Positions 25,427-51,175 of a DNA stretch of 64,000 nucleotides are shown piece after piece. The notes beneath the pieces are model-generated. The model ran no database searches. It had not been told where the DNA came from and was given only the letters and a program-made list of their open reading frames with translations. The stretch lies in contig CACZNH010000009.1 of the NCBI GenBank assembly GCA_902782465.1, positions 1 to 64,000 on the forward strand, written 5' to 3'. A program made the translations under genes and the position numbers. Source of the stretch: an uncultured Bacteroidales bacterium. GTDB taxonomy: Bacteria; Bacteroidota; Bacteroidia; Bacteroidales; Muribaculaceae. How positions within the stretch are numbered: the stretch's first letter is position 1; each line of letters opens with the position of its first letter.

Positions 25427-25545
25427 CAGTTTTCAGTTTTCAGTTGTCAGTTCTCAGTTATAAGTTTTCAGTTGTCAGTTCTCAGTTTTCAGTTGTCAGA
25501 GTATGCGGATGCCGCTGAAAACTGACAACTGAAGACTGAAAACTA
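25427..25545 (-). repeat. Long inverted CAGTTTT/CAGTTGT array with GCGGATGCC core
   Basis: The arm 25427-25500 holds about ten CAGTTTT/CAGTTGT/CAGTTCT units. The core TATGCGGATGCCG lies at 25502-25514. The opposite arm, CTGAAAACTGACAACTGAAG continuing to 25545, is complementary to the first. The TAG stop of the HD gene (25543-25545) is the end of that arm. The transcript could form a long hairpin between the HD and endonuclease genes. Confidence 0.7.
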
Positions 25546-26178
25546 GTTTAGTGATTCGTAGATTCGGTCAAACATTTTTCGGAATGCCGTTTCATCGGCC
25601 AGTGTCTGACGAAAAGCATACAGTCGGACGGCGTTATCGCTCTCGGGAATCCACAGCTTGAGGTAACCGCCATAGTCATATTTTTCGCGCATGTGTTCCA
25701 TCAAACGTCGATATTGTCCCTCGCGGTCCAGGCCCGGCTCATGTTTCATGCCATATTGCAGGGCGCGACGCACAATGGTCTCGCCGTCAATGATGCGGTC
25801 GGCCTCGGCAACGATGCGGCCATAGATGGTGCGCGGTTCATGGCTGCTCGAGGCTCGATGGTCCTCGGCAGCATCGGCGATGGTATTGATTTCCTCATTG
25901 GTGAACCACTGACGCAGCCGTGCGTCCTCGCGCACGATGCGGGCACTGTGGGTGTGGTGCTCCTCACGGCCAAAAGCCAATCCCAGGTCATGGTAGGCCG
26001 CAGCCACGAGCAACACACATGGATCCACCTCAGGATAGTATTGTGCCAACTCCAACGCCTGGGAAATCACAGTCTGAACATGGTCCCTGCCATGCCCGGC
26101 GTCAAAATTGTCGTATTGCGGAATAATATCCCGCACAATAAACTCCCGTATTTCTTCAAATTCTCTCATCTCTTCCAT
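25543..26178 (-). CDS. HD-domain phosphohydrolase
   Basis: 211 residues from the chosen start. It has the HD metal-binding arrangement: GHGRDHVQTV near residue 28, AAYHDLG near 60, HTHSARIVRE near 75 and AEADRIIDGE near 125. The family hydrolyses phosphate esters (often nucleotides); the substrate cannot be told. The frame extends upstream to 26217, but that part encodes only the 3'-UTR repeat of ribBA (MYDGFAPVARVWC), so ATG 26178 (MEEMREFEE), at the end of the element, is used; ATG 26169 is also possible. Probably co-transcribed with ribBA. Confidence 0.8.
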   Translation of the reverse strand: MEEMREFEEIREFIVRDIIPQYDNFDAGHGRDHVQTVISQALELAQYYPEVDPCVLLVAAAYHDLGLAFGREEHHTHSARIVREDARLRQWFTNEEINTIADAAEDHRASSSHEPRTIYGRIVAEADRIIDGETIVRRALQYGMKHEPGLDREGQYRRLMEHMREKYDYGGYLKLWIPESDNAVRLYAFRQTLADETAFRKMFDRIYESLN

Positions 26179-26237
26179 ACACCATACACGCGCCACAGGC
26201 GCAAATCCATCATACACAGCGGGCTCCAGCCCGCTTC
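26175..26237 (-). repeat. Two-hairpin post-stop element, copy 1 (after ribBA)
   Basis: In the sense of ribBA, from 3 bases after TAA: hairpin A GCGGGCTGGAGCCCGC, linker TGTGTATGATGGATTT, hairpin B GCGCCTGTGGCGC, tail GTGTATGGTGTATGG. The last ATG of the tail is the likely start of the HD gene. Same layout as 44313-44388, 47817-47875 and 50356-50412. Confidence 0.85.
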
Positions 26238-27452
26238 TTAATCCACCTTGTGCAGGTCATGGCCCATGCGAGTCTTCTTGGTGTGCATGTAGAACTCGTT
26301 GTAGCGGTTGGGCTTCACCTCGATAGGCACGTTCTCGACAACTTCCAGGCCGTAGCTTTCCAGTCCCACGCGCTTGACGGGATTATTGGTCATGAGCCGC
26401 ATCTTGGTGATGCCCAGGATGCGCAGGATGTTGGCGCCCACGCCGTAGTCTCGTTCGTCGGGCTTGAATCCCAGGTGCACGTTGGCTTCGACGGTATCCA
26501 TACCGCCCTCTTGCAGCTTGTAAGCCTTGATTTTGTTCATCAGTCCGATGCCGCGTCCCTCCTGATTCATGTACACGAGTACGCCCTTGCCTTCTTTTTC
26601 TATCATCTGCATTGCCATGTGCAACTGTTCGCCGCATTCACAACGCATCGAACCAAAGATATCGCCCGTAGCGCACGACGAATGTACGCGCACCAGAACG
26701 GGTTCATCGGCCTTCCATTCGCCCTTGATGAGAGCGATATGCTCCAGGCCGTTGTTGATTTGGCGGAAGGGGATGAGTTTGAAATGGCCATACTGCGTCG
26801 GCAGGTCCACTTCGTCGCCCACCTCAACGACCTTTTCGGTGCGCAGGCGATAGGCAATCAGATCCTTGATGGTGATGATGGGCATGTCGAATTTCTTGGC
26901 CACCTCGACGAGCTGTGGCAAGCGGGCCATTGTGCCGTCGGGATTAATAATCTCGATAAGGGCGGCGGCAGGGTAGAGGCCCGCAATGCGCATCAGGTCT
27001 ATCGAGGCCTCGGTGTGGCCAGCGCGTTTGAGTACGCCCTTGTCCACGGCACGCAGCGGGTTGATGTGTCCCGGGCGGCCAAAGTCCTGCGGCTTGCTGT
27101 GCGGATTGGCCAGGGCACGGATGGTCATCGCACGGTCATGCATCGACACACCCGTGGTGCAGCCGTCCAGCAGGTCCACCGTCACAGTGAACGGTGTTCC
27201 CAGCATCGACGTGTTGTCATCGACCTGCATATTCAGTTCAAGCTCATGGCAACGCTCGGTGGTGACGGGTGCACACAGCACGCCACGTCCCTCACGCAGC
27301 ATGAAATTGACTTTCTCCTCGGTGATTTTTTCGGCAGCGATGATAAAATCGCCCTCGTTCTCACGGTCTTCGTCATCGACCACGATGACAAATTCGCCGC
27401 GTCGCAGCTGCTCCACGGCCTCGTCAATGGTATTCAGTTTGATTTCGTCCAT
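26238..27452 (-). CDS. ribBA: Bifunctional DHBP synthase / GTP cyclohydrolase II
   Basis: 404 residues. The N-terminal half (about 1-200) is 3,4-dihydroxy-2-butanone-4-phosphate synthase, with the acidic [11 protein letters not shown] motif near residue 26 and GHINPLRA near 127. The C-terminal half (about 205-404) is GTP cyclohydrolase II with the zinc site [15 protein letters not shown] (about 257-271) and [10 protein letters not shown]. The protein supplies both precursors of riboflavin. No FMN riboswitch is apparent upstream; the gap to the LptF/G gene holds a palindromic repeat instead. Directly followed by the two-hairpin element and the HD gene. Confidence 0.96.
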
Positions 27453-27473
27453 TATTATTTCAGTTTTTTTATG

Positions 27474-27565
27474 AACTACGAATTTCGCTAATTACACTGA
27501 AAAATTACAATTCGCTAAATTTGTGTAATTCGTAGTTTGTTTATTGTCTGTTGGCTGAAGCCAAC
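27474..27565 (-). repeat. Palindromic AATTCG repeat and post-stop hairpin after LptF/G gene
   Basis: AACTACGAATT (27474-27484) and AATTCGTAGTT (27527-27537) are perfect inverted repeats enclosing AATTCGC/AATTACAC words, like those near 570-600. Closer to the LptF/G stop, GTTGGCTTCAGCCAAC (27565-27550, minus sense) forms a hairpin with the same TTCA loop as hairpin A of the post-stop element, but without its linker and tail. It could be a diverged relative. Confidence 0.55.
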
Positions 27566-27571
27566 GGCGCT

Positions 27572-29509
27572 TTATTTATACTCCATGTCGCGACTGTATT
27601 CACCGTTGAAGATAGCCACGAGTTGGTCGCTGGTCTTGATGGTCTGGGCGATGTCGCGTTTCAGGTTTTTCTGATGCCGCAGGCCGATGAGCCACAATGG
27701 CAGGCTGATGGGCAGCAGTGCCGCCAGTGCAGTACCCACATTCTTGTTGCTGGTGGGCTGGTAGGTGAGCAGTTGGCGGATAACGGGATAGTCCATCGCC
27801 TTGTTGAGCACCATCTGCTCGCGGGAGTTGGAGAGGTAGTCCACCACAGCGTCAACCTCTTCGGCCAGGGCCTTGATGGCTGCCTTGTCATAGCCTTGTT
27901 GCCAATAGGCAAGAAAACCTTGGCGAACGGGATAACGGTCAAGGAACTGCTGGCAAGATGTCTTCAAGTTCTCAATACGTTCGATGGCCACGTCAGGCAC
28001 CACCTCATTGATAATGACCTCCTTGGCGCTGAGCTTGCGCGTCTGGTGCAGGCCGGTGAACCGTCGCAGGAAGTTGAGCCATACGTCGGGGTTGAATACT
28101 GCCGAGTCGTTGACGGCCTTGTGAGTGAGGAATATGCCTAACGGCAACAGTACCACTGAACTTAGCCACATGCCGTGCCACACCTCCCAACGGCCATCAC
28201 GCGCCAGCTTATAGCCCATATTGTCGATAATATAATAGACAATGAACAGCAGCACCGAGATGACGATGGGCATACCGAATCCGCCCTTGCGGATAATGGC
28301 TCCCAAAGGGGCACCGATGAAGAAGAAGATGAGGCATGCCAGCGACAGGGTGAATTTCTTCATCAGCTCAATCTGGTGGCGGCGGATGACGAAGTTGTCG
28401 TCACTGATGGTGTATCCCTGGAATTGCAGGTCTTGCATTGCCGACGTGGTGTGGGCAATAGCCTGGTTCAGGATTTGCTCTTGCTCATTTTGCGGCATCT
28501 CCTTGATGATTTTCTTCAGGTCAACCGGTTTGTCTATAGCGACCTCCTTGACCTGTTCAATGACCTGCTGGCCGTCTTTATAGGCATAGCGTTGAGCAGG
28601 TACGCCACACACTGGTTGAGTACGTAACCTTGCCAAGACGAAATTGGCAGCCGAGTCCACCTTGAGGCGCACCGAGTCGATGGTTTGCCGCAACTCGGTG
28701 ATATTCTTGCCCACATATTGCGAGCGCATCGTCTCGTCATCCATGCGGGTGAAATTGGCGTCATAGGGGATAAGGATTTCCTTGTCATGGAATGTCTCGC
28801 GGCGATAAAGGTCTCCACTCATGCCATTCACGCCGTCACTGTTTTTCATCTCCTCATACCAGGAACCCTTGTACATGGTCAACACCAGGTGCTGTTTGTC
28901 CTCGGTCATGCTCAGGCGGCCCGAGTCGGCAGCCACGATGCGCGGGTATGAATTGCCGTTCGACACGTCATAGATAAGCAGCCCGTAGAGCATGTCGTGC
29001 TCTTTGTCATTACGCTTGACAAAAATGTTGTATCCTGGAATCTGGCTATAGACGGCTCCTTCGGGGATGTCGAGTGTTGGCGAGGTCTGCCGCATCGAGA
29101 ACAGCAGGGTCCACATCTTGACCTGTGACTGCGGCAGTACATTGTTCTGGAAGAAGAATGCTCCCACGGCAACCACTGCCATGAGGATGGCCAGCGGCTT
29201 CATGATGGTCGTCAATGAGATGCCCGACGACTTGAGCGCCGTCAGCTCGATGTGCTCGCCCAGGTCGCCAAAGGTCATCAACGCTGCCAGCAGGATGCTC
29301 AACGGCAGCGCCAGCGGCACCATTGACAGCGCGGCATAGAAAAAGAGCTCGGCAATCACGTCCACGCTCAATCCCTTGCCCACCAGCTCGTCGATGTAAC
29401 GCCACAGGAACTGCATAATCACGATGAAGAGGCAGATGCAGAAGGTCATCAAGAACCTCGGCAAAAACCTCGACAGCATAAACGTATGTAGCCTTTTTAT
29501 CTTCAACAT
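27572..29509 (-). CDS. LptF/LptG-family (YjgP/YjgQ) permease with C-terminal extension
   Basis: 645 residues. The first 100 residues hold three hydrophobic segments (e.g. FLMTFCICLFIVIMQFLW and MVPLALPLSILLAALMTFG) with the family motif near GDLGEHIELTALKSSGIS. A periplasmic beta-jellyroll follows (about 115-370), then further membrane segments around 380-475 (SLACLIFFFIGAPLGAIIRK, GFGMPIVISVLLFIVYYII). Residues about 485-645 form a mostly soluble extension with one further hydrophobic stretch. LptF/G pull lipopolysaccharide from the inner membrane using LptB. Usual length is about 360, so the extension is notable. Likely first gene of the lptFG-ribBA-HD unit. Confidence 0.87.
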   Translation of the reverse strand: MLKIKRLHTFMLSRFLPRFLMTFCICLFIVIMQFLWRYIDELVGKGLSVDVIAELFFYAALSMVPLALPLSILLAALMTFGDLGEHIELTALKSSGISLTTIMKPLAILMAVVAVGAFFFQNNVLPQSQVKMWTLLFSMRQTSPTLDIPEGAVYSQIPGYNIFVKRNDKEHDMLYGLLIYDVSNGNSYPRIVAADSGRLSMTEDKQHLVLTMYKGSWYEEMKNSDGVNGMSGDLYRRETFHDKEILIPYDANFTRMDDETMRSQYVGKNITELRQTIDSVRLKVDSAANFVLARLRTQPVCGVPAQRYAYKDGQQVIEQVKEVAIDKPVDLKKIIKEMPQNEQEQILNQAIAHTTSAMQDLQFQGYTISDDNFVIRRHQIELMKKFTLSLACLIFFFIGAPLGAIIRKGGFGMPIVISVLLFIVYYIIDNMGYKLARDGRWEVWHGMWLSSVVLLPLGIFLTHKAVNDSAVFNPDVWLNFLRRFTGLHQTRKLSAKEVIINEVVPDVAIERIENLKTSCQQFLDRYPVRQGFLAYWQQGYDKAAIKALAEEVDAVVDYLSNSREQMVLNKAMDYPVIRQLLTYQPTSNKNVGTALAALLPISLPLWLIGLRHQKNLKRDIAQTIKTSDQLVAIFNGEYSRDMEYK

Positions 29510-29535
29510 GGGCCTAAAACGGCAATTAACGGCTG

Positions 29536-29543
29536 CAAAGTTA
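29536..29543 (-). promoter_or_regulatory. Candidate -7 box for LptF/G gene
   Basis: TAACTTTG on the minus strand, followed by CAGCC, 26 bases before the ATG at 29509. No TTTG occurs at the standard 19-21 base spacing, so only half the consensus is present. Confidence 0.5.
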
Positions 29544-29684
29544 GTGTTTTTTAGTTAATGACGCACGTTTTTTACTTTTCAGTTAGTGCGACCGTATCAA
29601 TTTTTCATCTCCTTTTATGTATTTCAATTTGCGGCAGCAATTCGATTTTTTTGAATTCTACCAGAAAAAATAAAATCTTTTTTG

Positions 29685-29692
29685 TAGATTTG
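29685..29692 (+). promoter_or_regulatory. Candidate -7 box for the surface-protein operon
   Basis: TAGATTTG followed by CAGCATC resembles Bacteroidetes -7 boxes. It would give an AT-rich leader of about 140 bases before ATG 29838. No well-spaced TTTG is present. Nothing else is seen in the 29544-29837 gap. Confidence 0.4.
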
Positions 29693-29837
29693 CAGCATCA
29701 AACTTATATTAACCTTTTATTTGCTTTTTTTATTGTACGACATCACAGAATGACGTGTATGAGGTGTTTAAACTTCGTATATTATTCTTTTGTTATATAA
29801 ATAATTATCATATTACAAACTACTAAAACCAACAATT

Positions 29838-30932
29838 ATGAAAAAGATTTTATTGATTTGCATCTTAGCGATGATCGCTGTGTTTAACCTCAATGCCGAG
29901 CCACTGGTGTCGGTACCTGTAGCAACCCTGACCCATGACGGTGTCGCCACCCAGTTCTACGGCGCCAACGCCCTGGCGAATGCCCATGCTGCCGCCGTCA
30001 GCGGTGACATCATCACCCTGAACGGGGGCACTTTCACCGCTTGTGACATTACCAAGGGCATCACCCTGCGCGGTGCCTGCATGTTAACCAATACAGAGAT
30101 GTCAGAGCAGGGCATGAAATCTTCGATAATCAGGGGTAATTCTGAATTTCACATTAAAGTCCCCAAAACCGAGACCCATGCGTTGACCATTGAGGATTGC
30201 GCATTATATGCACAGGTATATATTGACAGTGTGCCGGAAATCACAATGAGACGTGTGTACCATCGATACTATTATCTAAACTCATCAACTAATAGTGTTA
30301 CTACAATCTATATGGGGATAAGGCCTAATGTTGATAAATTTGAAGCCATTCAGTGTTCTTTTTACCAGATAGCTACATATTCAAGTGCATCTGGAGCGAG
30401 TACTTCTACCAATACATCAACCACTTTCAATTTTACGAATTCTGCAATCAGTTTTACCGGTTATTTGCCTGCCCATGTGACGATGGACCATTGTGTCGTG
30501 GGCTATTGGAGAACACCTTCTGGTATTGAATATGATGGCGTTTTCTCAAATTGTGTTTTCACATATTATTCTACTTCTTATCCTTCATATTCACAGCTGC
30601 CCATGGGATGCACGGCACTGAACTGTGTTGCTGTCAACTCTTATGCTTTTGCTTTGTGCACTAGCCAAAATTGCCAAAGCAATGTTTCGTTGTCAACGTT
30701 ATATAATACGACATCATCTGTTTATGAATATGGCTGTTATACCAGTCATCTTACTGAGGAGGCTGCTGCTACCTATCTGGGTACAGACGGTACCGAGGTG
30801 GGCATCTATGGCGGCTTGTTCCCGTACACCCTCATGCCCGACAACCCCCTCGTGACCAAGTGCGATGTCGCCAACAAGACGACTGAGGACGGCAAGCTGA
30901 AAGTCGAAATTGAGGTCAAGAGCGTACAGTAA
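29838..30932 (+). CDS. Secreted protein, probable right-handed beta-helix
   Basis: 364 residues: signal peptide (MKKILLICILAMIAVFNLNA), then GDIITLNGGTFTACDITKGI and TLRGACMLTN, a pattern typical of pectin-lyase-like parallel beta-helices where short strands alternate with turns. The middle (about 140-310) is rich in Ser, Thr, Tyr and Asn, and its DNA is visibly more AT-rich than both ends, hinting at a replaced or horizontally acquired segment. No catalytic motif recognised. First of three co-directional surface-protein genes; 21 bases separate it from the next. Function unknown; an adhesive or glycan-binding role is a guess. Confidence 0.65.
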   Translation: MKKILLICILAMIAVFNLNAEPLVSVPVATLTHDGVATQFYGANALANAHAAAVSGDIITLNGGTFTACDITKGITLRGACMLTNTEMSEQGMKSSIIRGNSEFHIKVPKTETHALTIEDCALYAQVYIDSVPEITMRRVYHRYYYLNSSTNSVTTIYMGIRPNVDKFEAIQCSFYQIATYSSASGASTSTNTSTTFNFTNSAISFTGYLPAHVTMDHCVVGYWRTPSGIEYDGVFSNCVFTYYSTSYPSYSQLPMGCTALNCVAVNSYAFALCTSQNCQSNVSLSTLYNTTSSVYEYGCYTSHLTEEAAATYLGTDGTEVGIYGGLFPYTLMPDNPLVTKCDVANKTTEDGKLKVEIEVKSVQ

Positions 30933-30953
30933 CTTTTCTTATCCCATGACATC

Positions 30954-33900: not shown

Positions 33901-34046
33901 TTCTTAAACAACATCTGAACGGACTGCAAAATGGCACCACATCCATCAACCTGATTGACAGGATTGATAAAGACGGTTATTATATTGTTACCGTGCGTGC
34001 TGCAGGTCAAATGATTGCTACTCAGAAATTAACTCAAACACGTTAA
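30954..34046 (+). CDS. T9SS-exported surface protein: four Ig-like repeats, LRR, dockerin-like, sorting domain
   Basis: 1030 residues. After a short signal peptide (cleavage near ARGQ) come four repeats of about 75 residues (about 22-318), each with the signature YCYIDGNLYKKETLTVDGG, GLHRVNVK and FFYRV. A beta-rich segment follows, then leucine-rich repeats (about 540-650; LRLLDLSHNNLSGN, LQELNVSYNDFEGN), a dockerin-like calcium-loop pair (about 760-822; GDANLTGDVDVTDLQAMVNY) and a C-terminal type IX sorting domain (about 950-1030; VAIYSIDGRVVLKQHLNG). Likely exported and attached to the cell surface. It ends two bases before the next gene's ATG. Confidence 0.8.
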   Translation: MRKQWLLFLFLTMQCIARGQTAGQVTGYDCRLLVDGELLEQTALTASGGRITWDADASAFSPGLHHVTAQVVRHETGSATTMQYESLFYRVAGNAPMTHQVEGYCYIDGNLYKKETLTVDGGLARWDMDVTALPVGLHRVNVKTVDRYGANTRTDSYESFFYRVADGTGQIAHELDAEVYVDGNLFKHEQLTVDAGVTRLMLDMDGLPYGLHTVKVIVTDKTSQGTTTSCYCSFFYHQAASQQIGHNLQGYCYVDDELVKQEALTVDGGNVQWMLDMSALPVGLHRINVKMIDENEAAVTWSYNSFFYRLPTTSDVKGITGYDYWVNQDHQGHSDVRPYQEVYMLDTVLTVSKQEIRSISFHFAVEDDVPVVYAQNDLWVMFHDVSGKEANAFASYTDIRTRREVTDAILLQPGETASMTRPAENEIKWYKVEALAGDSLLFKTDKACTWQLFSPTGVELYRADGETATEWGGTFTVEDGTHYIAVHDMSVTGNTLSISYHHVDGQFVLDENDWEILKSFYAQYGNDSFSWDLADRINVRDLDGVSIAIGRVVSIELPNKNLNGTFPTMLLGLEQLRLLDLSHNNLSGNAADEITQYADGQDSFISNLQELNVSYNDFEGNLGELAALLPSLTALDAASNQFNEVSPVIRQTVTVNLNDQRLTLDADLTRGMHDVIASIPSICYYDHRNQVQSTNLTVELVDETQEPQWTLDLSLTGDQYWMNAPYPYRGENGQAITGHTSFSSGAWNNRQMLSGMFSFAAGDANLTGDVDVTDLQAMVNYIFSEYSRPFNFTAANHHFDAILNVQDVVGEVGILLALNPAEITNAPLRASLREDNAALASLYWRNDTLYLENSVPVASIDVVNVASGNIRWLVDALGMIVSTTRVEGGEHAIIYSLGDAVIQPGITAIAKTSSSNSIISAAKLSDEEAMLVPVVLNNATDGITPLVVEPLRLHLEGDALNISCGTELQDVDVAIYSIDGRVVLKQHLNGLQNGTTSINLIDRIDKDGYYIVTVRAAGQMIATQKLTQTR

Positions 34047-34048
34047 TC

Positions 34049-41581: not shown

Positions 41582-41602
41582 ATGATTCGTCTTTAATCTT
41601 TT

Positions 41603-41634
41603 AAGGCGGTTCTCCTAACAGGGGGAATCGCCTT
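41603..41634 (+). terminator. Stem-loop terminator after the surface-protein operon
   Basis: AAGGCGGTTCTCC (41603-41615) pairs with GGGGGAATCGCCTT (41621-41634) with one wobble and a short loop; the tail AATTAT is a weak U-tract. It ends the three-gene unit 22 bases after the stop. Confidence 0.65.
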
Positions 41635-41684
41635 AATTATCAAAAATATAGCCTTTTAATGGCAATGGCAATAAGAAAATGCAC

Positions 41685-41692
41685 TACCTTTG
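41685..41692 (+). promoter_or_regulatory. -7 box for DUF5686 gene, inside the longest open frame
   Basis: TACCTTTG followed by CAGTC is a strong match to the Bacteroidetes -7 box. No TTTG sits at the usual -33 distance. Because it lies inside the longest open frame (from ATG 41659), the translation start should be downstream: GGAGG at 41702-41706 precedes TTG 41713. Confidence 0.55.
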
Positions 41693-41712
41693 CAGTCATT
41701 GTGGAGGCTTCT

Positions 41713-44244
41713 TTGCGACATATCGTGTGCTTGGTGGTCGTGCTTTTGGCTGCTTTGACAGCAGCGGGACAGCAGGCGGTGACGCAGATTACCGGCTTGG
41801 TGCGTGACTCGGTGAGCCGCGAGGGCATTCCGTATGCGTCGGTGACTCTGGTGGGCACCGATGAGGGCACTATGGCGAACGACATGGGCGGTTTTACCAT
41901 TAACTCACGTGCTCGTTTCGACAAGTTGCGCGTCTCGGCGATGGGCTATCGTTCCAAGGAGGTGCCCATCAAGTCGGGGCAGGGGAATGTTGTACTCATC
42001 GACTTGGTTGCCACTGGTGTCGAATTGGACGAACTGGTGGTGCGCAAGGGCAAGGAGAAGTACAGCAAGAAGAACAACCCTGCAGTGGACCTTATCAAGG
42101 ACCTGCGCCGTCGGCGCGACGATAACGACCCACGACAGCACCCGCATTACGGTTACTACCAGTATGAGCGCATGATGATGGGCTTTGGCGACCTGGACGG
42201 ACTGCTCAAGAAACCTGAGGAACAACGATGGGTTGATGAGTATGCCGACACATCACTGCTCACGGGAAAGCGCGTCCTGCCCGTTTCCATCAAGGAGACT
42301 GTGGCCCGCGACTACTATAGCCGTGACCCCAGTGCCCACCGTCAGGTGATTCTAGGCGTGAAGAGCGCAGGCATCGACGAGGGCATTAATCAAGAAAATG
42401 TCAAGAAGATTCTCGATGACTTCATGGGTGAGGTGGACATTTTCCAGAACGATGTTACACTGATGAGCAACCGTTTTGTCAGTCCGCTCTCGCGCATTGC
42501 TGTGGATTTCTACAAGTTCTATCTCAATGACACTGTAACGATTGATGGAGAGCGGTGTGCGGTATTGAGTTTTGTACCATTTACGCCGCAGACCTTCGGC
42601 TTTATTGGCCGCCTGTATGTATCACTTGAAGACACCACGCATTTTATCAAGAGGATATCGATGGGCGTGCCACACGACATTAATCTCAATTATGTGGAGC
42701 GCATGAGCATTGAGCAGAATTTTGAACGTGCCCCCAACGGCTCGCGGCTCAAGACGCTTGACAACGTGGAAATCAGCATGAAACTCATGCAAGGCTTGCC
42801 CGAGGTGTTTGCCCGCCGCGAGACGACTTACCGTAACCACAATTTTCAACGGCCTGAAGGAGGCATCTTTTCTGACAAGCAGGAGCAGAAGGTCGATGGC
42901 AGTGCGGCATTCATGCCCGATGAATTCTGGCAGGAATACCGCCCGTCCCAGGTGCGCACCACCACAGCGACGATGCGGGGGCTGATGAAGCGCTTGCGTG
43001 GCTCCAAACTTTTCTATTGGGCCGAGCAGGTCATCCTGGTCATGGTCAATGGCTATATCCCCACGGCCAAGGTCAGCAAATTTGACATCGGCCCCGTCAA
43101 CTCCATCATCAGCGGCAACTCGCTTGAAGGCTTTCGCCTGAGGCTGGGAGGCTTGACCACCGTCAACCTTAGTCGCCAGTGGTTTGCCCGCGGCTATGCT
43201 GCCTACGGCTTCAAGGACCGCAAGTTCAAATATATGGGCTCATTGGAATATTCCTTCACGCCCAAGAAAGCCCTCGACCAGGAGTTTCCTATCCATAGCC
43301 TGCGCCTGACTCACCGTTATGACGTGAGTCGTTTGGGAGAACACAACCTGTATACCAATGCCGACAACGTCTTTCTCACCCTGCGTCGACACAAAGAGGT
43401 GGGGTTGCACTACCTGCGCACGACACGCCTGGAGTACCGTCGTGAATGGTACAACCACTTCTCTATCGCCCTGGGCATCGAACACAATGCCCATGACTTG
43501 GGAACTTGGAGTGATGAATTAGGGGTTGGCCGCTACACTACTGCGGGATTCACCGCCCAGCTGCGTTTTGCCCCGGGTGAAACATTTTACCAGGCGCGGT
43601 CGGTGCGCATTCCCATCAATATGGATGCTCCCATCATCACCCTGACACAGACCTATATGCCCAAGGGCTTCATGGGTGGCGACTGTGAGGTCAACAAGAC
43701 TGAGCTGAGTTTGCAGAAGCGGTTTTGGTTCTCGGCCTTCGGCTATGCCGACGTCATCGTCAAGGGTGCCAAGGTATGGAGCCGTGTACCTCTTCCCGAA
43801 CTGCTGTTGCCCAACGTGAACCTTTCTTATACCATCCAGCCCGAAAGCTATGCCCTGATGAAACCCTTGGAATTCATCCATGACAAGGCCCTGTCCTGGG
43901 ACCTTACCTATTGGGGCAACGGCGTGCTGATGAACCGCCTGCCGCTTATCAAAAAGCTGCGCCTGCGAGAAGTCTTCACCCTGCGCGGCCTCTGGGGATC
44001 CCGCAGGGACTATAATGAGGAGTTAGGAGTTAGGAGTGAGGAATTCTCTTCACTTACACTTCTGACTCCTAACTCCTCATTCCTAACTGGCCAAGCCAAG
44101 GCGAGGCCTTATATGGAGGCTGCCGTGGGCATCGACAACATTTTCACTGTCTTGAGGGTGGACTACGTGTGGCGCCTCAACTACCGCGATAACGCCGGCA
44201 GCGACCGCCACGGCGTCCGCATCCAGCTCCACTTCAATTTCTAG
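41713..44244 (+). CDS. DUF5686 outer-membrane protein with carboxypeptidase-regulatory-like domain
   Basis: 843 residues from a TTG start (861 if ATG 41659 is used). The TTG is preferred because GGAGG lies six bases upstream, the putative -7 box is inside the longer frame, and the product then begins with a compact signal peptide (LRHIVCLVVVLLAALTAAGQ). Next comes a CarboxypepD_reg-like domain (about 25-110; ITGLVRDSVSREGIPYASVT), then the DUF5686 region and a beta-barrel of long strands to the C-terminus. Function unproven; related proteins are outer-membrane proteins with a plug-like N-terminal domain. Near residues 768-792 it carries an in-frame repeat (44014-44088). Confidence 0.8.
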   Translation: MRHIVCLVVVLLAALTAAGQQAVTQITGLVRDSVSREGIPYASVTLVGTDEGTMANDMGGFTINSRARFDKLRVSAMGYRSKEVPIKSGQGNVVLIDLVATGVELDELVVRKGKEKYSKKNNPAVDLIKDLRRRRDDNDPRQHPHYGYYQYERMMMGFGDLDGLLKKPEEQRWVDEYADTSLLTGKRVLPVSIKETVARDYYSRDPSAHRQVILGVKSAGIDEGINQENVKKILDDFMGEVDIFQNDVTLMSNRFVSPLSRIAVDFYKFYLNDTVTIDGERCAVLSFVPFTPQTFGFIGRLYVSLEDTTHFIKRISMGVPHDINLNYVERMSIEQNFERAPNGSRLKTLDNVEISMKLMQGLPEVFARRETTYRNHNFQRPEGGIFSDKQEQKVDGSAAFMPDEFWQEYRPSQVRTTTATMRGLMKRLRGSKLFYWAEQVILVMVNGYIPTAKVSKFDIGPVNSIISGNSLEGFRLRLGGLTTVNLSRQWFARGYAAYGFKDRKFKYMGSLEYSFTPKKALDQEFPIHSLRLTHRYDVSRLGEHNLYTNADNVFLTLRRHKEVGLHYLRTTRLEYRREWYNHFSIALGIEHNAHDLGTWSDELGVGRYTTAGFTAQLRFAPGETFYQARSVRIPINMDAPIITLTQTYMPKGFMGGDCEVNKTELSLQKRFWFSAFGYADVIVKGAKVWSRVPLPELLLPNVNLSYTIQPESYALMKPLEFIHDKALSWDLTYWGNGVLMNRLPLIKKLRLREVFTLRGLWGSRRDYNEELGVRSEEFSSLTLLTPNSSFLTGQAKARPYMEAAVGIDNIFTVLRVDYVWRLNYRDNAGSDRHGVRIQLHFNF
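44014..44088 (+). repeat. GGAGTTA repeat array embedded in frame in the DUF5686 gene
   Basis: AATGAGGAGTTAGGAGT (44014-44030) is perfectly inverted as ACTCCTAACTCCTCATT (44065-44081), with further GGAGTTA-type units around it. It is the same sequence class as the array after nfnA, but lies within the reading frame and is translated as NEELGVRSEEFSSLTLLTPN and a few more residues without a stop. Confidence 0.75.
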
Positions 44245-44310
44245 GCTTTAGGCTCTAGTTTTTAGGCTTTAGGAGCATCCGCCCCCTAATGCCTACCGCC
44301 TCAGTTATCA
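44242..44310 (+). repeat. Stop-adjacent TAGGCTT array with GCATCCGC core
   Basis: Starts at the TAG stop of the DUF5686 gene: TAGGCTTTAGGCTCTAGTTT, then TTAGGCTTTAGGA, the core GCATCCGC and a partly complementary arm CCTAATGCCTACCGCCTCAG. It has the same design as 25427-25545. Confidence 0.6.
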
Positions 44311-44312
44311 TT

Positions 44313-44388
44313 CCATACACCATACACGGCGGCAATAGCCGCCAAATCCATCATACACAGCCCCGTAAATCAATGATTTGCGGGGTTT
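44313..44388 (-). repeat. Two-hairpin post-stop element, copy 2 (after M16 peptidase)
   Basis: In the sense of the peptidase gene, 3 bases after TAG: hairpin A with CCCCG(c/t)AAATCA arms (25 bases), linker TGTGTATGATGGATTT, hairpin B GGCGGCTATTGCCGCC, tail GTGTATGGTGTATGG. Both stems differ from the other copies yet remain fully paired. Confidence 0.85.
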
Positions 44389-47190
44389 CTAGTTCATGAC
44401 GATGCGGAGGCGGGTGTGGGGTTGCAGGGATTGGATGTAGTGGTTGAACTGGTCGTAGGTGAGGGTGGGGAAAAGGTGGTCAAAGCCGCCGATGATGTCA
44501 ATTCCCAAGGCGCGCTGCTGCAGGGCGCGCATCCAGTAAGCATTGGTCTGCAGTGCGCTCTCGTGTTCGCGGGTGACCCGTTCCTTGATTTTGCCGAACA
44601 AATCCTCACTGATACCACTGTAAAAAACTGCTGTGGTAGCCTCTTCGGCATACTCAAGCATGCTGTCGCGGTCGGCAGTACTGGTCTCGAACTCATAATT
44701 GATCATCCAGCGATTGTGGTAAATCGACAATGAGCCGTCGGCAGCGACATCATAGATACCGTGCTTCTCGTGGCGCAGATAGGTCAGCAGCGCCGTTCCC
44801 ACCGATTCGCCGACAAGGTCCATCATGAATTCATCATCATAACTATAGGGCTTATCACCCATGATAGACACATAGACCGAAGACTTGGGGTTACGCATCG
44901 GCACCTCAAAGAAATTGTCCACCATGCCCGTTGCCATCACGGGACGGTAGCCGCCAAAACTTTCGCGCACGCCCTCGTCAGGCAGGGAAGCCAAGTATTT
45001 GCGAATCAGCGGCCGCACCTCGTCGACGGTAAAGGCTCCCACCAGCGAGAAGGTATAATCGCCCGCATTGGCGACACGCTGGCGGTAGAGTTCCAGCACA
45101 CGTTCGCCATCCAAGGCATCGACCTCTTCGGGGCGAATATTGCGATACATGGGATTGCCGCAATAGATGGTGCTGCCGATGGAATCGCTATAGGTCATTT
45201 TGGGATTATAGCTGGCTTGTGACAACTGTGAACGGATACGGGTCTTGATGCTCTGAAAGGCTTCCTGGTCAAGGCTCACATCAGTGAAATAAAGATAACA
45301 CAGCTGCAGCAGCGTCTCCAGGTCGGCACTCTGGCAGCCGCCACTCAACTGCTCGTTGGGGTCATTGAGGATAAAGGAGATGCCCAGCTGGCGACCGCTC
45401 ATCATGCGGTTGAGCTGGTTGATGGTGTGGCCACCAAGAGCACAGTTTTCAATGACCTGGTCCATCAGGCGCACGTTGATGTCGGCTGTGTCCCCATAGG
45501 CCCATTCGCCACCCAGGCTGAAGGCGTTGAACAGCACCTCGTTGTTCTTGAACGTCGTGGGCTTGAGCCTTACCGTAGCGCCATTGCGCAGGGTCATCGT
45601 AGTAATGCCCGTTTCGGGCTCAAACGTTTCGTTGACGATGGCACCGGCAATGGGCTCTATTTCTATCAGTTTGTCGTCGGCCGTCGAGTCGATGTATGGC
45701 GACTGCGGGGTGCTGTAGATGCGGCTGAAGTGGGAAATGACATCCCTTGAAGTGGGATAGTTGTTGTTCTTACCTATCGACTGGGGCCCTGAAATCAACA
45801 CACTCACATTGTCCTTGCCGATGACTTGCTGCAGATAGGCATTCACCTCGTCGAGCGTGATGCGTTCGAGCTCATCCAGCAGCATTTTTGACTCGGCAAC
45901 GACTCCCGGAATATAGCCACCATTGGCATAATGGTCCATATATTCGTCGGCATATTCTCGGCTTGTGCGGGTATTGGCTTCGCTCTGCAGGTCGGCATAG
46001 ACGGAATGAACGTTCTGCTTGGCACGTTTGAATTCTGTGTCAGTAAAGCCGTGTTGTCGGGCACGGACGGCATAGGTCACAAGGGTATCCAACGCCTCCA
46101 GCGAGCAACCATGCTTGGCGAGGGCCGCCAGCGTGAGGGCGCCACGGGAGCGTGCAACGAGAAACTGGCGGTCATAGACCATGCCATAGTCCACTGGCGA
46201 GTCAGCCGTGCGTACCAGTTCGTCGAGCCTGCGGTTGAGCATCTCCTGAATGAGGGTGGAGATGACGTTGTGTTTCAGATAGGTCGCCGTGTTGCGCTGT
46301 TCCATCGGGAACTGTGCGTGCTCAAACATCAGATAAACCATCGTGTTGGAGGCTTCGGGGTCATTGTGCAGGGCATAGGAAACGCCGTTATGGTCAGGAA
46401 TGGTGCCCAAATCGGGACTAGGGGCGCTGTTGAATCGTTTTGGAATCAGGCCAAACGTCTTCTTGACAGCCATTTCCATCCTCTCGGCATCAAAATCCCC
46501 CACAATTACCACAGCCTGCTGTTCGGGGCAATACCAGCGGTGGTAGAACGAAAGCAATTCTCCGCGAGTCACATTTCTCACAACGGTCATGTCGCCGATG
46601 GGGATACGGAAAGCATAACGGCTCCCTGACAGCAGAATGGGCAGCGTGTTTTCATACATGCGCATCGTCTGGTCAGCGTGCATGCGCCATTCCTCCTGAA
46701 TCACACCGCGTTCTTCCTCAATGGCTCGGTCGTCAAAATTGAGCTCATAAGAGAGGTCCTTGAGCATGAGCAGTACGGTGTCCAGCAGTTCTACACGCGC
46801 TGTGGGAACATTTGAAATCTGGAATCGTGTATCGTCAAATCCTGTCGAAGCGTTGATGTCCTTACCGTAGGAAACACCGTTGTTTTGCAGGATATTGACC
46901 ATATCGATTTTTGGGAAATTGCGCGTTCCCTGAAAGGCGATATGTTCAATGAAATGAGCCAAACCGCGTTCGTTGTCTTCCTCGACAAGGGAACCGGTAT
47001 TCTGAATCAGCCAGAACTCGGCACGCCCGGCCGGTTGCCCATTGTGACGGATATAATAGGTCAAGCCGTTGTCCAAACGCCCCACGCGCAACTCGGGGTC
47101 CACAGGCAACTGCTGCACCTTTGTGCCGGCAAGCATCGAGGGCATTGCCAAAGCAAATGCAGTAATTAATAAAACGATGATTCTCTTCAT
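44389..47190 (-). CDS. M16 family zinc metallopeptidase
   Basis: 933 residues with signal peptide (MKRIIVLLITAFALAMPSML). The first domain has the inverted zinc motif HFIEH (His79, Glu82, His83) and the downstream acidic helix IEEERGVIQEEWR, which carries the third ligand. Further M16 domains continue to the C-terminus, giving the two-lobed clam-shell of pitrilysin/PqqL-type peptidases. It should cleave peptides in the periplasm. It lies eight bases downstream of the 5-formyl-THF cyclo-ligase gene on the same strand. The stop is followed at once by the two-hairpin element. Confidence 0.93.
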   Translation of the reverse strand: MKRIIVLLITAFALAMPSMLAGTKVQQLPVDPELRVGRLDNGLTYYIRHNGQPAGRAEFWLIQNTGSLVEEDNERGLAHFIEHIAFQGTRNFPKIDMVNILQNNGVSYGKDINASTGFDDTRFQISNVPTARVELLDTVLLMLKDLSYELNFDDRAIEEERGVIQEEWRMHADQTMRMYENTLPILLSGSRYAFRIPIGDMTVVRNVTRGELLSFYHRWYCPEQQAVVIVGDFDAERMEMAVKKTFGLIPKRFNSAPSPDLGTIPDHNGVSYALHNDPEASNTMVYLMFEHAQFPMEQRNTATYLKHNVISTLIQEMLNRRLDELVRTADSPVDYGMVYDRQFLVARSRGALTLAALAKHGCSLEALDTLVTYAVRARQHGFTDTEFKRAKQNVHSVYADLQSEANTRTSREYADEYMDHYANGGYIPGVVAESKMLLDELERITLDEVNAYLQQVIGKDNVSVLISGPQSIGKNNNYPTSRDVISHFSRIYSTPQSPYIDSTADDKLIEIEPIAGAIVNETFEPETGITTMTLRNGATVRLKPTTFKNNEVLFNAFSLGGEWAYGDTADINVRLMDQVIENCALGGHTINQLNRMMSGRQLGISFILNDPNEQLSGGCQSADLETLLQLCYLYFTDVSLDQEAFQSIKTRIRSQLSQASYNPKMTYSDSIGSTIYCGNPMYRNIRPEEVDALDGERVLELYRQRVANAGDYTFSLVGAFTVDEVRPLIRKYLASLPDEGVRESFGGYRPVMATGMVDNFFEVPMRNPKSSVYVSIMGDKPYSYDDEFMMDLVGESVGTALLTYLRHEKHGIYDVAADGSLSIYHNRWMINYEFETSTADRDSMLEYAEEATTAVFYSGISEDLFGKIKERVTREHESALQTNAYWMRALQQRALGIDIIGGFDHLFPTLTYDQFNHYIQSLQPHTRLRIVMN

Positions 47191-47197
47191 CTAGGCT

Positions 47198-47773
47198 TCA
47201 GCAGAAAAGTGATTTCTTTGCCTCATCGCAAATCACGGTGTCGCTGGTGACGATGCAGTCCAGCGGACGGTCATGCGACTCGACGGGAACTACTTCCACC
47301 AGTTGGAAATCACAAGCCACTCCAATCGTGGGGCAGTCGGTAGTACTGAGAAGTCTGTCATAGAAACCCTTGCCGCGTCCCAGCCGGTTACGATGGCCGT
47401 CAAGGGCCACAGCGGGCACAATGATGAGTTCCAGACACGATGCACTCACAGCGTCACCCACAGGCTCGCCGATATGGAATTTATTGTTATCGTCAAGGCT
47501 TTCCGGTCCAATGTAGGGCACTATCTCCAAGTCATCCCCGTTAACGCGGGGCAGGTAGATGTTTTTGCCGTCGGCAAGCCAGCGGTTCACGCTCTCATGC
47601 GTGGGCAACTCATCGGGCAGCGACCAGTAGCACAGGATGTGCTGGGCCTGCTGCCAAACGGGCATCGCCTTGATGGCATTAAACACCATGGAAGCCTCCA
47701 CCTCACGCACGGCAACAGGCGTGATGGCCTTGAGTTGCTTGATTTGCTGCCGCAATTCCTTTTTGCTTATCAT
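47198..47773 (-). CDS. 5-formyltetrahydrofolate cyclo-ligase
   Basis: 191 residues of the 5-FTHF cyclo-ligase family: N-terminal SKKELRQQIKQLKAITPVAV, a substrate-site segment GDDLEIVPYIG, and the ATP-binding signature NRLGRGKGFYDRLL near residues 128-141. It converts 5-formyl-THF and ATP to methenyl-THF, returning folate to the one-carbon pool. Length is normal. Probably co-transcribed with the M16 peptidase gene just downstream. The gap upstream (47774-47875) holds a CAGTTTT array and a two-hairpin element. Confidence 0.93.
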   Translation of the reverse strand: MISKKELRQQIKQLKAITPVAVREVEASMVFNAIKAMPVWQQAQHILCYWSLPDELPTHESVNRWLADGKNIYLPRVNGDDLEIVPYIGPESLDDNNKFHIGEPVGDAVSASCLELIIVPAVALDGHRNRLGRGKGFYDRLLSTTDCPTIGVACDFQLVEVVPVESHDRPLDCIVTSDTVICDEAKKSLFC

Positions 47774-47776
47774 TAT

Positions 47777-47816
47777 TCAGTTTTCAGTTTTCAGTTTTCA
47801 GTTTTCAGTTGTTAGT
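47777..47816 (-). repeat. CAGTTTT heptamer array
   Basis: Four nearly perfect CAGTTTT units, then CAGTTGTTAGT, between the two-hairpin element of the S1 gene and the cyclo-ligase start. On the minus strand the array follows the element tail directly (ACTAACAACTGAAAACTG). Confidence 0.7.
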
Positions 47817-47875
47817 CCATACACCATACACGCGCCGCAGGCGCTAATACACCTTATACAGCGCTGAAGCGCTTA
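47817..47875 (-). repeat. Two-hairpin post-stop element, copy 3 (after S1-domain gene)
   Basis: In the sense of the upstream gene, after TGA and a second in-phase TAA: hairpin A GCGCTTCAGCGC, linker TGTATAAGGTGTATTA, hairpin B GCGCCTGCGGCGC, tail GTGTATGGTGTATGG. The linker is the most diverged of the four copies; hairpin B and tail equal those of copy 4. Confidence 0.85.
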
Positions 47876-48703
47876 TCAGACCAGTTTCACGGTATCGCCA
47901 AGAGTGACCTTCTGCTGCTTGTACAACAGTCCCAGCGCCTTCTTGAAATCCTTCTTACTGCACTCGAACACTTTGCTGATTTCCTCGGGAGAACTCTTGT
48001 CGGTGAGTGTCATTTCCCCGCCATGTTCCTTGAGATACAGCTCAATGCGGTCTCCCAAATCGTCGACGCGCATTTTCTCGATTTTGGCAAGCGTGACATC
48101 CACCTTGCCGTCAGGGCGAACCTGCTTGACAAAGGCCGTCAGCCTGTCGCCGACGTTCACATCCTGGTAAATCTCGTTTTGGTAAATCTGTCCCCAATGG
48201 GCATTACCCACGATGACGCGATAGCCCAGGTCGCTGCGCTGCACGACCAGCACCTCGACACGCTCACGATGGTAATAGTCGGGCTCGGTTCGGTTGAGGA
48301 ATTTGGCGAGTTTGGCGCTGGCGACGATGCGATGGCTAGCCTCGTCCAGATAAACGCGCACGATATAACTGCGTCCTGCCTGCATGTCCACCCGCTGCTC
48401 GCTGAAGGGCACCAGCAGGTCTTTAGCCGTCAGTCCCCAATCAAGGAATGCACCCACCTTGTTCACCGCCTTGACGCGCATCAGAGCAAAATCCCCGACC
48501 ACGGCCTTGGGAATCTCGGTGGTAGCCACAGGTCGGTTCTCGCTGTCGTTATAGACAAACACGCGAATGGTGTCTCCCACCTTCATCTCGGGCGTGAGGT
48601 AGCGCTTGGGCAACAACACCTCGTGGGTGTCATCGTCAATCAGGTAGGCACCGAAATCCACGGTACGGTTTATCCTCAGTTCATTATATTCACCTATCTT
48701 CAT
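47876..48703 (-). CDS. S1-domain RNA-binding protein (CvfB/YitL family)
   Basis: 275 residues with tandem S1-type OB folds: residues 1-60 (GEYNELRINRTVDFGAYLID, LLPKRYL), 65-130 (GDFALMRVKAVNKVGAFLDW), a third near 140-215 (VLVVQRSDLGYRVIVGNAHW), and a C-terminal winged-helix-like part (about 220-275; SSPEEISKVFECSKKDFKKA). This is the CvfB architecture. Related proteins bind RNA and affect virulence-gene expression in Gram-positive bacteria; the target here is unknown. An inverted CAGTTTT array lies just upstream. Confidence 0.88.
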   Translation of the reverse strand: MKIGEYNELRINRTVDFGAYLIDDDTHEVLLPKRYLTPEMKVGDTIRVFVYNDSENRPVATTEIPKAVVGDFALMRVKAVNKVGAFLDWGLTAKDLLVPFSEQRVDMQAGRSYIVRVYLDEASHRIVASAKLAKFLNRTEPDYYHRERVEVLVVQRSDLGYRVIVGNAHWGQIYQNEIYQDVNVGDRLTAFVKQVRPDGKVDVTLAKIEKMRVDDLGDRIELYLKEHGGEMTLTDKSSPEEISKVFECSKKDFKKALGLLYKQQKVTLGDTVKLV

Positions 48704-48710
48704 TCTCTTG

Positions 48711-48774
48711 GTTTTCAGTTTTCAGTCTTCAGTTGTCAGTGGCATCCGCGAACTAGAATTGACAACTGAGAGCT
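48711..48774. repeat. Inverted CAGTTTT array with GGCATCCGC core
   Basis: The arm 48711-48740 (TTTTCAGTCTTCAGTTGTCA and flanking units) is partly complementary to ATTGACAACTGAGAGCT on the other side of GGCATCCGC (48741-48749). It lies between divergent gene starts, an exception to the post-stop rule. Confidence 0.6.
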
Positions 48775-48879
48775 ATTTTTTTTGCAAAGTACGGGAAAAA
48801 AATCCATTTCACAAGTCGATTTTCGGCAAATTTGTCGTACCTTAGCGAGATAAATCATTACATACTAGTTCAAAAACGA

Positions 48880-49731
48880 ATGAAAACGAAGGTTACAACA
48901 CTGCTTATATTACTGTCGGTCACCGCATTACTCCTATCGTGCGGAAAGTCACGGTCAAGCAAAAACGGTGACGGCAAGCCCGCTATTACCGTCAAGACAA
49001 AACACCTGAGCGATACTTCGGGCTTCACGATGAGCAACGGTGAGCGTTGCACTATCGTTGCCGATGCCACTATCGATTATCCCGTGACAACGGCAACTGG
49101 CGCATCGCTCGATAGCCTGCAGCGACTCTTCGCCGCCTATGTGCTGGAATCGGGCGACTCGCTGTCGCTGCAGGATGCGATGCAGCAGGTGGTAGCCAAC
49201 AGCATGCATCAGTATGATTTCATGAGCGGCCCGTTAAGCGATGCTGAAGCTGCCGAGGCCGCCGAAGCTGAAAACCAGACCACCCTCAAGTATGTAACCA
49301 GTACGCGCATCACACCTCTCTATAACCAAAACGGAGTGGTGACTTTTGAGCGCGTCGATGTGGTGAAGAAAAACGATAAGGTGACTTCGGTCACCCATCG
49401 CTACTACAGTTTTGATGTCGAGACACAGACCTATATCGACGTGAACCGCCTGTTCCGTGACGATGCAATGGCCGATGTGTGCCAGTTGCTCAAGCAACAG
49501 CTGCTGGCCCAGAACAATGCCACCGGCAATGAGCAGTTGAATGACCTGGGCTATTTCAATGTTGAGAATATCACGGTGACCCGCAACTTCTATTTCGACG
49601 AGAATGGCGTGACGTGGAGCTTCTTGCCCAACGAACTGGCAGTAGAAGCTGTCGGTGAGCCCAAAATCACCATCCCTTATGCCGACCTGGAACCTTTTCT
49701 GTGTGACGAGAGCATCATTGAGCGGTTTTAG
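48880..49731 (+). CDS. RsiV/DUF3298-like lipoprotein
   Basis: 283 residues from ATG 48880. The lipoprotein signal ends LLLSC (Cys21). The C-terminal half matches the DUF3298 fold of RsiV/PdaC-type proteins: FDVETQTYIDVNRLF and FYFDENGVTWSFLPNELA, then TIPYADLEPFL. No transmembrane anti-sigma region is present, so it is a lipid-anchored envelope protein and not an RsiV ortholog. The longer frame (48832) adds 16 residues without a signal and is not used. The gene lies three bases upstream of rsmG. Function unknown. Confidence 0.78.
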   Translation: MKTKVTTLLILLSVTALLLSCGKSRSSKNGDGKPAITVKTKHLSDTSGFTMSNGERCTIVADATIDYPVTTATGASLDSLQRLFAAYVLESGDSLSLQDAMQQVVANSMHQYDFMSGPLSDAEAAEAAEAENQTTLKYVTSTRITPLYNQNGVVTFERVDVVKKNDKVTSVTHRYYSFDVETQTYIDVNRLFRDDAMADVCQLLKQQLLAQNNATGNEQLNDLGYFNVENITVTRNFYFDENGVTWSFLPNELAVEAVGEPKITIPYADLEPFLCDESIIERF

Positions 49732-49734
49732 ACA

Positions 49735-50355
49735 ATGGAACATATCCTGAAATACTTTCCAGAACTGACCGAGGGGCAACGTAAACAATTCGAGCAGCTC
49801 TTGGCACTTTATCCCGAGTGGAACGACAAAATCAACGTCATCTCCCGCAAGGACATCGATAATCTTGAAGTTCACCACATCCTGCACTCGCTGGGAATCA
49901 TCAAGTTTGTCAAGTTCACGCCCGGCACCCGGGTAATGGACTTAGGGACGGGTGGGGGATTCCCTGGAATCCCTCTCGCCATCTATTACCCCGAGGTGAC
50001 TTTCCATCTCGTTGACCGAATCGGCAAAAAGCTACGCGTGGCACAGGATATCGCTGAGCGCATCGGGCTGAAGAATGTCACCTTCCAGCATGGCGACGTC
50101 AAGGAGGTGAAAGGCAAATTTGACTTCGTTGTGAGCCGTGCGGTGATGGACCTGGGTGACATGGTGCCACTGGTCAAGAAATTCATCGCTGGCGATGACC
50201 GCAATGCCGTACCCAATGGACTCATCTGCCTCAAGGGCGGTGACCTGAGCGGCGAGGTTGCCGGCTACAGAAGCAAGGTACTGATTGACGAACTTTCCAG
50301 CTACTTCAAGGAAGAATTTTTCAAAACCAAAAAAGTCCTCTATTTACCGTTGTAA
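49735..50355 (+). CDS. rsmG: 16S rRNA (guanine-527-N7)-methyltransferase
   Basis: 206 residues, normal for RsmG. N-terminal helical segment LYPEWNDKINVISRKDIDNL, which includes the conserved WN...N(V/L)(I/T)SR pattern, SAM-binding MDLGTGGGFPGIPLA (about 68-82), and DFVVSRAVMDL near 135. It methylates G527 in the 530 loop of 16S rRNA. Probably translated from the same mRNA as the lipoprotein gene before it. The two-hairpin element starts immediately after TAA. Confidence 0.96.
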   Translation: MEHILKYFPELTEGQRKQFEQLLALYPEWNDKINVISRKDIDNLEVHHILHSLGIIKFVKFTPGTRVMDLGTGGGFPGIPLAIYYPEVTFHLVDRIGKKLRVAQDIAERIGLKNVTFQHGDVKEVKGKFDFVVSRAVMDLGDMVPLVKKFIAGDDRNAVPNGLICLKGGDLSGEVAGYRSKVLIDELSSYFKEEFFKTKKVLYLPL

Positions 50356-50412
50356 GCGCTTTCAGCGCTGTGTAGGGTGGATTTGCGCCTGCGGCGCGTG
50401 TATGGTGTATGG
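50356..50412 (+). repeat. Two-hairpin post-stop element, copy 4 (after rsmG)
   Basis: Abuts the TAA stop: hairpin A GCGCTTTCAGCGC, linker TGTGTAGGGTGGATTT, hairpin B GCGCCTGCGGCGC, tail GTGTATGGTGTATGG. The only copy on the plus strand, again in the orientation of its gene. Confidence 0.88.
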
Positions 50413-50499
50413 ACTGACAACTAAGGACTAAGGACTAAGGACTAAGGACTAAAAACTAAAAACTAAGGACTAAGGACTAAGGACTAAAAACTAAGGACT
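50413..50499 (+). repeat. ACTAAGG/ACTAAAA heptamer array
   Basis: After ACTGACA come about twelve 7-base units (ACTAAGG and ACTAAAA) running directly up to the ATG at 50500, so the array forms the translation-initiation region of the MBL hydrolase gene. This is the clearest 7-bp periodicity in the window. Confidence 0.85.
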
Positions 50500-51138: not shown

Positions 51139-51141
51139 AAT

Positions 51142-51175
51142 AACGGGAGAGTCGTTTGCGGCTCTCCCGTTTTTT
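51142..51175 (+). terminator. Rho-independent terminator after MBL gene
   Basis: AACGGGAGAG (51142-51151) and CTCTCCCGTT (51162-51171) form a 10-bp stem followed by TTTT. On the other strand the stem is followed by ATTTTAC, so it may also stop the minus-strand gene ending at 51199. Confidence 0.88.

Follow-up and report, generated by a model that had tools for sequence, protein, structure and literature searches.

Repetitive extragenic palindromes (REPs) and bacterial interspersed mosaic elements (BIMEs) are the closest known kind of repeat to the family reported here, which shares with them, as far as the accessible parts of the published descriptions go, the form of short dispersed palindromes with small loops that are often clustered and lie near the 3′ ends of open reading frames (ORFs) (PMC2817692; PMC3733652). 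For two REP-rich genomes, the part of one report available to us places REPs mostly near ORF 3′ ends (less than 20 bp away if the genes are convergent), between co-directional or convergent genes (PMC3733652). Here, in a stretch of 64,000 nucleotides from an uncultured Muribaculaceae bacterium of the order Bacteroidales (contig CACZNH010000009.1, assembly GCA_902782465.1; the whole stretch is hereafter called the window), four copies of an element composed of hairpins and heptamer pairs stand directly behind stop codons. They belong to a family that is dispersed over unrelated genes of the genome, which is related to rumen Bacteroidales; the family keeps its stems paired and, at every site that could be evaluated, follows the orientation of the upstream gene.

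All four copies were located by reading and aligning the window sequence at the places where an earlier note, made from the window alone, had reported two-hairpin copies after ribBA, an M16 peptidase gene, an S1-domain gene, and rsmG, and Pfam matches of the host genes (ribBA, M16 peptidase, CvfB-like S1 protein, and GidB/RsmG) agree with those assignments. In gene orientation, each copy consists of the stop codon, hairpin A, a two-heptamer linker, hairpin B, and the tail GTGTATG GTGTATG G, the linker and tail being of the same doubled heptamer type (GTGTATG and variants). Copy 1 (26175–26237, minus strand; after ribBA) contains hairpin A (26218–26235), the linker (26203–26217), hairpin B (26190–26202), and the tail (26175–26189). 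Copy 2 (44313–44388, minus strand; after the M16 peptidase gene and convergent with the gene at 41659–44244) contains a long hairpin A unrelated to that of the other copies (44361–44385), the linker (44344–44358), hairpin B (44328–44343), and the tail (44313–44327). Copy 3 (47817–47875, minus strand; after the CvfB-like S1 gene) contains hairpin A (47860–47873), the linker (47845–47859), hairpin B (47832–47844), and the tail (47817–47831), and copy 4 (50355–50412, plus strand; after rsmG) contains hairpin A (50355–50369), the linker (50370–50384), hairpin B (50385–50397), and the tail (50398–50412). The sequence GTGTATGGTGTATGG is exact in these four tails, and no further mismatch-free GTGTATGGTGTATGG occurs in the window. 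Hairpin A begins 2, 3, and 2 nucleotides (nt) after the stop in copies 1–3, within the 0–3 bases given by the earlier note, but overlaps the stop in copy 4 (−1 nt), where the final A of the rsmG TAA codon doubles as the first base of the hairpin. No match above the gathering threshold of Rfam 15 was found in the window.

A covariance model (R1) was built from nine genomic seed copies, among them the window copies at 47817 and 50355 but not those at 26175 and 44313, and was used to search the genome (3.13 Mb, 94.8% complete). In the window, a run with filters off recovered all four copies at E ≤ 1e-12; in the whole genome, there were 35 matches at E ≤ 1, of which 26 reached E ≤ 0.001. The exact tail occurs nine times in the genome (four in the window) versus zero for a reversed control, and a looser linker pattern gave 31 genomic matches versus zero for its control; the exact-match, control-pattern, and shuffle counts rule out a chance origin of the repeat family. 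On reading, the matches show one to four hairpins per site with heptamer pairs between them and units arranged head to tail, and the 30 best genomic matches comprise 28 arrays. The two-hairpin form of the window copies is not a fixed unit but one of the states that a modular array can take. The first hairpin is an unrelated longer stem at some sites (C9:44313, which is copy 2, C16:30849, and C4:86546; contig and position), and linkers of the GTGGAG type are present instead at C20:18710 and C21:130. Among 19 hairpin-B feet, 11 read GTGTATT-, seven GTGGATTT, and one GTGGAGG. The linkers are more conserved than the stems and are strand-specific. At C1:185489–185533, the called downstream gene starts within the array, the tail of which may provide the start codon of that gene. 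Another dispersed repeat, a AGTCCCGT-AGGGACG hairpin, lies near some arrays (loci L003 and L101) and also occurs in a relative (L049).

Of the 35 matches, the 30 best were examined with a codon-usage gene caller, which placed a gene upstream of 29; the 30th (C21:130) lies at a contig start. All 29 evaluable matches (27 of 27 distinct arrays) are downstream of a stop codon in the same orientation as the gene, so that the stop adjacency and gene-relative orientation noted earlier for four copies extend well beyond the window; the covariance-model search that had been proposed as a check did not return copies scattered over both orientations and away from stops in this genome. The element starts at most 11 nt from the stop in 22 of the 29. 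Two matches (C9:44313 and C16:30849) were shortened by the model and start at the stop once the longer hairpin is counted, two (C20:18644 and C10:66482) belong, as second units, to arrays already counted, C10:66545 lies 33 nt from the stop behind a terminator-like hairpin, and C2:136645 lies 43 nt away with other hairpins between. At C8:86224–86285 (plus strand) and 86324–86383 (minus strand), two convergent genes carry one copy each, facing each other, with the orientation flipping within 100 bp; the window copies at 47817 (minus strand) and 50355 (plus strand) likewise run each in the direction of its own gene and flip within 2.5 kb. Because opposite neighbouring copies follow their own genes, replication direction is excluded as the cause of the orientation in this genome. 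None of the 29 matches lies in a gap between divergent genes, versus 29 divergent gaps among 167 of at least 60 bp in a 464-kb sample (~0.006 for 0 of 27). In the congener G091, all 10 fetched copies (of 14 matches) follow the same orientation rule.

The stems differ between copies and yet stay paired, as the earlier note had also described. In the nine seeds, 103 of 103 cells are paired and both sides have changed in 7 of 12 pairs, versus a mean of 3.4 pairs in the shuffle control (2 of 500 shuffles as high). In 27 copies, 97.1% of 273 cells are paired and both sides have changed in 11 of 12 pairs, a count that none of 500 shuffles reached; the covariation score of 0.425 compares with 0.122 in shuffles and with no more than 0.076 when partners are slid. 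This alignment was fitted by the model to the structure, and so leans towards it, and its covarying copies are all from one genome. Pairing is thus kept while the stem letters change, at a level, RNA or DNA, that covariation does not separate. In RNA folding alone, both hairpins appear in the minimum-free-energy structures of the copies at 26175 and 44313 (z, −2.92 and −3.56). Stem arms pair with their own partners in 48 of 48 and 46 of 46 cases versus 72% and 74% when crossed, although these arms had been preselected as perfect stems and the comparison is hence not independent evidence.

We tentatively favour the reading that the arrays are a lineage-specific, REP-like palindromic family kept or filtered at the transcript level, most likely as a 3′-end barrier. 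A unit comprises a GC-rich hairpin and a tag, roughly two GTGTATG heptamers long, that has an orientation, and one to four such units stand head to tail behind the stop. Since its direction matches that of the gene, irrespective of the replication strand, the array may be filtered or maintained through the transcript, in which stem-loops could form immediately behind the terminating ribosome, either between cistrons or in the 3′ untranslated region. REPs of Escherichia coli hinder 3′-to-5′ mRNA decay; the array may likewise hinder decay in this direction, and would separate the upstream message from what follows without acting as a U-tract terminator.

Several observations weigh against this reading. 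The match at C7:190483 sits 171 nt from the stop, and in six other relatives, only five of nine fetched loci keep the orientation rule. Terminator-like T-run hairpins precede some arrays (C21:130, C10:66482–66619, and L128 of G091), which are possibly untranscribed. In RNA folding alone, hairpins A and B cross-pair in the copies at 47817 and 50356 (z, −1.72 and −1.64), and DNA-level palindrome correction can also give covariation within a genome. Furthermore, none of 28 loci that contain the M16 gene, most of them from genomes titled as rumen or other ruminant gut, has the linker motif anywhere in the locus. For ribBA, matches were found in 59 of 101 genus genomes; 30 of the loci were retrieved and 26, including the own one, were read, and the element follows the gene in the own genome only and in none of the 25 readable relatives. 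It is also absent from all six orthologous sites compared in sampled relatives, one of which is the ribBA site of G093 again. Because relatives are without the element at the same genes, it is dispensable. The earlier idea of a maintained structure at 3′ ends is borne out as to pairing and orientation, but not by the orthologous sites or by the arrays behind T-run hairpins.

The distribution among relatives is narrow. Matches at E ≤ 0.001 occur in 8 of 101 genus genomes including the own one, i.e., in 7 of 100 others, with 14 copies in G091 and four in G081 beside the 26 of the own genome; in a sample of the family, 6 of 297 genomes including the own one match at E ≤ 0.0001, two of them in other genera. 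The GTGTATG motif is nearly private to the own genome. The M16 spacer, readable in 27 loci, holds heptamer arrays or plain spacer. After ribBA, G093 (ribBA 98% identical) has a TTAGGTG-type heptamer array, G024 a hairpin, G081 two hairpins, the second degenerate, with TTAGAGA heptamers between them and heptamers again after the second, and G035 and G036 a hairpin and then GTTTAAA heptamers, while several relatives have almost nothing after the stop. In G081, TTAGAGG heptamers come after a different hairpin at the site orthologous to C23:8163. The slot thus holds a hairpin and heptamers again in some relatives, though in few cases. The spacers after orthologous M16 and ribBA stops (L045–L072 and L179–L208) are wholly different between related species, some being only a few nt and others long heptamer arrays; such differences suggest that intergenic DNA turns over fast. 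In two other genera, G212 (L133, ~1500–1620) has hairpins with GTTTAT-type linkers between them behind a terminator-like hairpin, and G168 (L134, ~1500–1580) has a hairpin and then a (GTTTATG) array. Viral carriage was considered and rejected: the 17-mer GTGTATGGTGTATTTGC occurs in 15 viral stretches, but the best model match is partial (E, 0.035) and likely due to chance.

The main rival, possible though unlikely, is neutral growth purely at the DNA level, in which template switching (quasi-palindrome correction) would extend palindromes at gene ends and keep them perfect and slippage would expand the heptamers, with no RNA function. In its favour, period 7 stands out in the intergenic DNA of the own genome, accounting for 33 of 70 intergenic tandem arrays in the 464-kb sample and for 98 of 2000 randomly sampled intergenic positions, versus 4, 9, 8, and 25 for periods 5, 6, 8, and 9; in G081, it accounts for 32 of 800 versus 2–14 for other periods. 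The hairpins with a different heptamer at orthologous sites (ribBA in G081, G035, and G036; the C23:8163 site in G081) point in the same direction. However, neutral growth leaves unexplained why the same GTGTATG tag recurs at unrelated sites of one genome and why 29 of 29 matches have gene orientation, and in two relatives period 9 is ahead of period 7 (37 versus 21 of 1600 in G091; 15 versus 10 of 400 in the small sample of G093). In the window itself, heptamer tandem arrays of various motifs occupy intergenic gaps at 2254–2287, 11556–11593, 25427–25544, 44242–44273, 47776–47810, 48711–48740, 50420–50500, and 56349–56379; two of these fill the space from a copy to the start codon that comes next, namely 47776–47810 (minus strand; AACTGAA in gene orientation) after copy 3 and 50420–50500 (plus strand; ACTAAGG) after copy 4. 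A weak, degenerate fifth match to the model (23577–23621, minus strand; E, 0.029) directly follows the stop of the gene at 23626–25425 (minus strand).

A GC-rich perfect hairpin starts −3 to 15 nt after the stop in 16 of 328 genes of the own sample. Judged by eye, seven of the 16 run into GTGTA/GTATA-type linkers, one into another heptamer array, and eight into neither. An automatic period-7 score after such hairpins was passed by 1 of 16 in the own genome, 1 of 4 in G081, 3 of 11 in G091, and 0 of 0 in G093, low numbers because two heptamers before the next hairpin are too short for the score. Heptamer arrays might serve to place stop codons in every reading frame, but the counts do not decide for or against this: among 27 co-directional arrays of the own sample, 11 have such stops in the sense direction only, three in the antisense direction only, and 13 in both, and GTGTATG itself has no stop codon.

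It is rather improbable that the arrays are a true REP family moved by a REP-associated tyrosine transposase (RAYT; a Y1 HUH transposase) that acts in trans or has been lost. Dispersed hairpins whose foot reads GTGG or GTGT would fit such an origin, and the genome has five PF01797 matches at four genes (two of the matches are pieces of one interrupted gene, L042/L043), with the L044 frame scoring 41.4 bits with the NCBIfam REP-transposase model, below its cut-off of 80, and the L040 frame matching an IS200/IS605 model above cut-off. However, the linker motif is absent within 1.5 kb of the four own Y1 loci examined, and among 24 Y1 loci of six relatives, a linker-like motif occurs in four (one in G081), always over 1 kb away from the Y1 match and hence judged non-flanking; the flanks inspected (four own loci and 8 of the 24 in relatives) carry other hairpins, and no Y1 gene flanked by the repeat was seen among them. 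By eye, the Y1/IS200-like transposase genes L040, L041, L042/L043, and L044 have hairpin repeats of their own on the flanks. Single-strand insertion would, moreover, be expected to follow replication and not gene direction.

There is a slim chance that the unpaired GUGUAUG linkers are a site read by an RNA-binding protein (e.g., an RRM protein), as their strand-specificity and better conservation than the stems might suggest, but RbpB of Bacteroides is reported, in the part of the paper accessible to us, to prefer AU-rich sequence (PMC11697453). An unusual transcription terminator can be given almost no credence: although the hairpin is directly behind the stop, the GC hairpins of all four window copies differ from intrinsic terminators in having no U-tract behind them, the next co-directional gene begins 20–144 nt from the stop at three of the four, a weak scan of 44000–52000 (8 sites found versus 7.0 expected in shuffles) placed no terminator-like site at the three copies there, a U-tract terminator exists elsewhere in the window (51142–51171), and T-run hairpins precede some arrays.

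A wider reading is conceivable but doubtful, namely that a gene-end grammar of hairpin plus heptamer extends across the genus, perhaps the family, in which the slot from the stop codon to the next gene would take a hairpin of any sequence and then heptamers, with the heptamer homogenised within each genome and the orientation set by transcription. The heptamers seen are GTGTATG in the own genome, TTAGAGA in G081, GTTTAAA in G035 and G036, and GTTTATG in another genus. If true, this grammar would represent a type of intergenic repeat that, unlike a RAYT-driven REP, spreads or is retained in a manner coupled to the termination of transcription or of translation. The 28 arrays in one genome and the empty orthologous sites of congeners form a natural test set for the effect of 3′-end stem-loops on mRNA decay in Bacteroidales.

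A literature search, with subscription papers and supplements outside its scope, yielded no paper that we recognised as describing a hairpin plus GTGTATG element. Among palindromic candidate RNAs of the human microbiome, the accessible part of the report describes 20 of 250 as not terminator-like and perhaps REPs, some of them from Bacteroidetes (PMC8040213); the present family is likened to these by description only and may overlap with them. The TAACTGA arrays of Beggiatoaceae, Cyanobacteria, and five Bacteroidetes are similarly intergenic heptamer tandem repeats, often before starts, but of another heptamer, and an alternation with hairpins is not described in the part of that report available (PMC4679880). 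Subclass 2.6 TnpA-REP of Bacteroidetes, with atypical flanks, resembles the family in having hairpin repeats copied elsewhere in the genome, as far as the accessible text goes, whereas the Y1 genes inspected here are flanked by other hairpins (PMC6006769). As for REPs, closeness to stops, which the earlier note took as an argument against REP-like repeats, does not set the family apart, because published REPs, in the portion of the report available, also lie near ORF 3′ ends (PMC3733652), where 22 of the 29 matches are found within 11 nt of the stop. The differences lie elsewhere. In place of GTAG/CGTC, the tag consists of two heptamers (GTGTATGGTGTAT), and the GTAG/CGTC tag at the palindrome end, as given in the accessible part of the source (PMC3733652), is found in none of the 19 hairpin-B feet. 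REPs usually exceed 100 copies per genome, against 26 matches at E ≤ 0.001 and 35 at E ≤ 1 here; no RAYT gene with inverted copies of the repeat on its flanks was found, an absence that is not final in a genome 94.8% complete; and the units stand head to tail, unlike the alternating REPs of BIMEs. The GT(A/G)G head, likewise from a partial source (PMC2817692), falls between likeness and difference, as GTGG is present in eight of the 19 feet, but 3–4 nt off the palindrome, and GTGT stands in the other 11. Finally, REPs are usually treated as scattered palindromes, whereas the orientation of the present family is locked to the gene at every evaluable site in its own genome, and this gene-following direction points to selection or insertion by way of the transcript.

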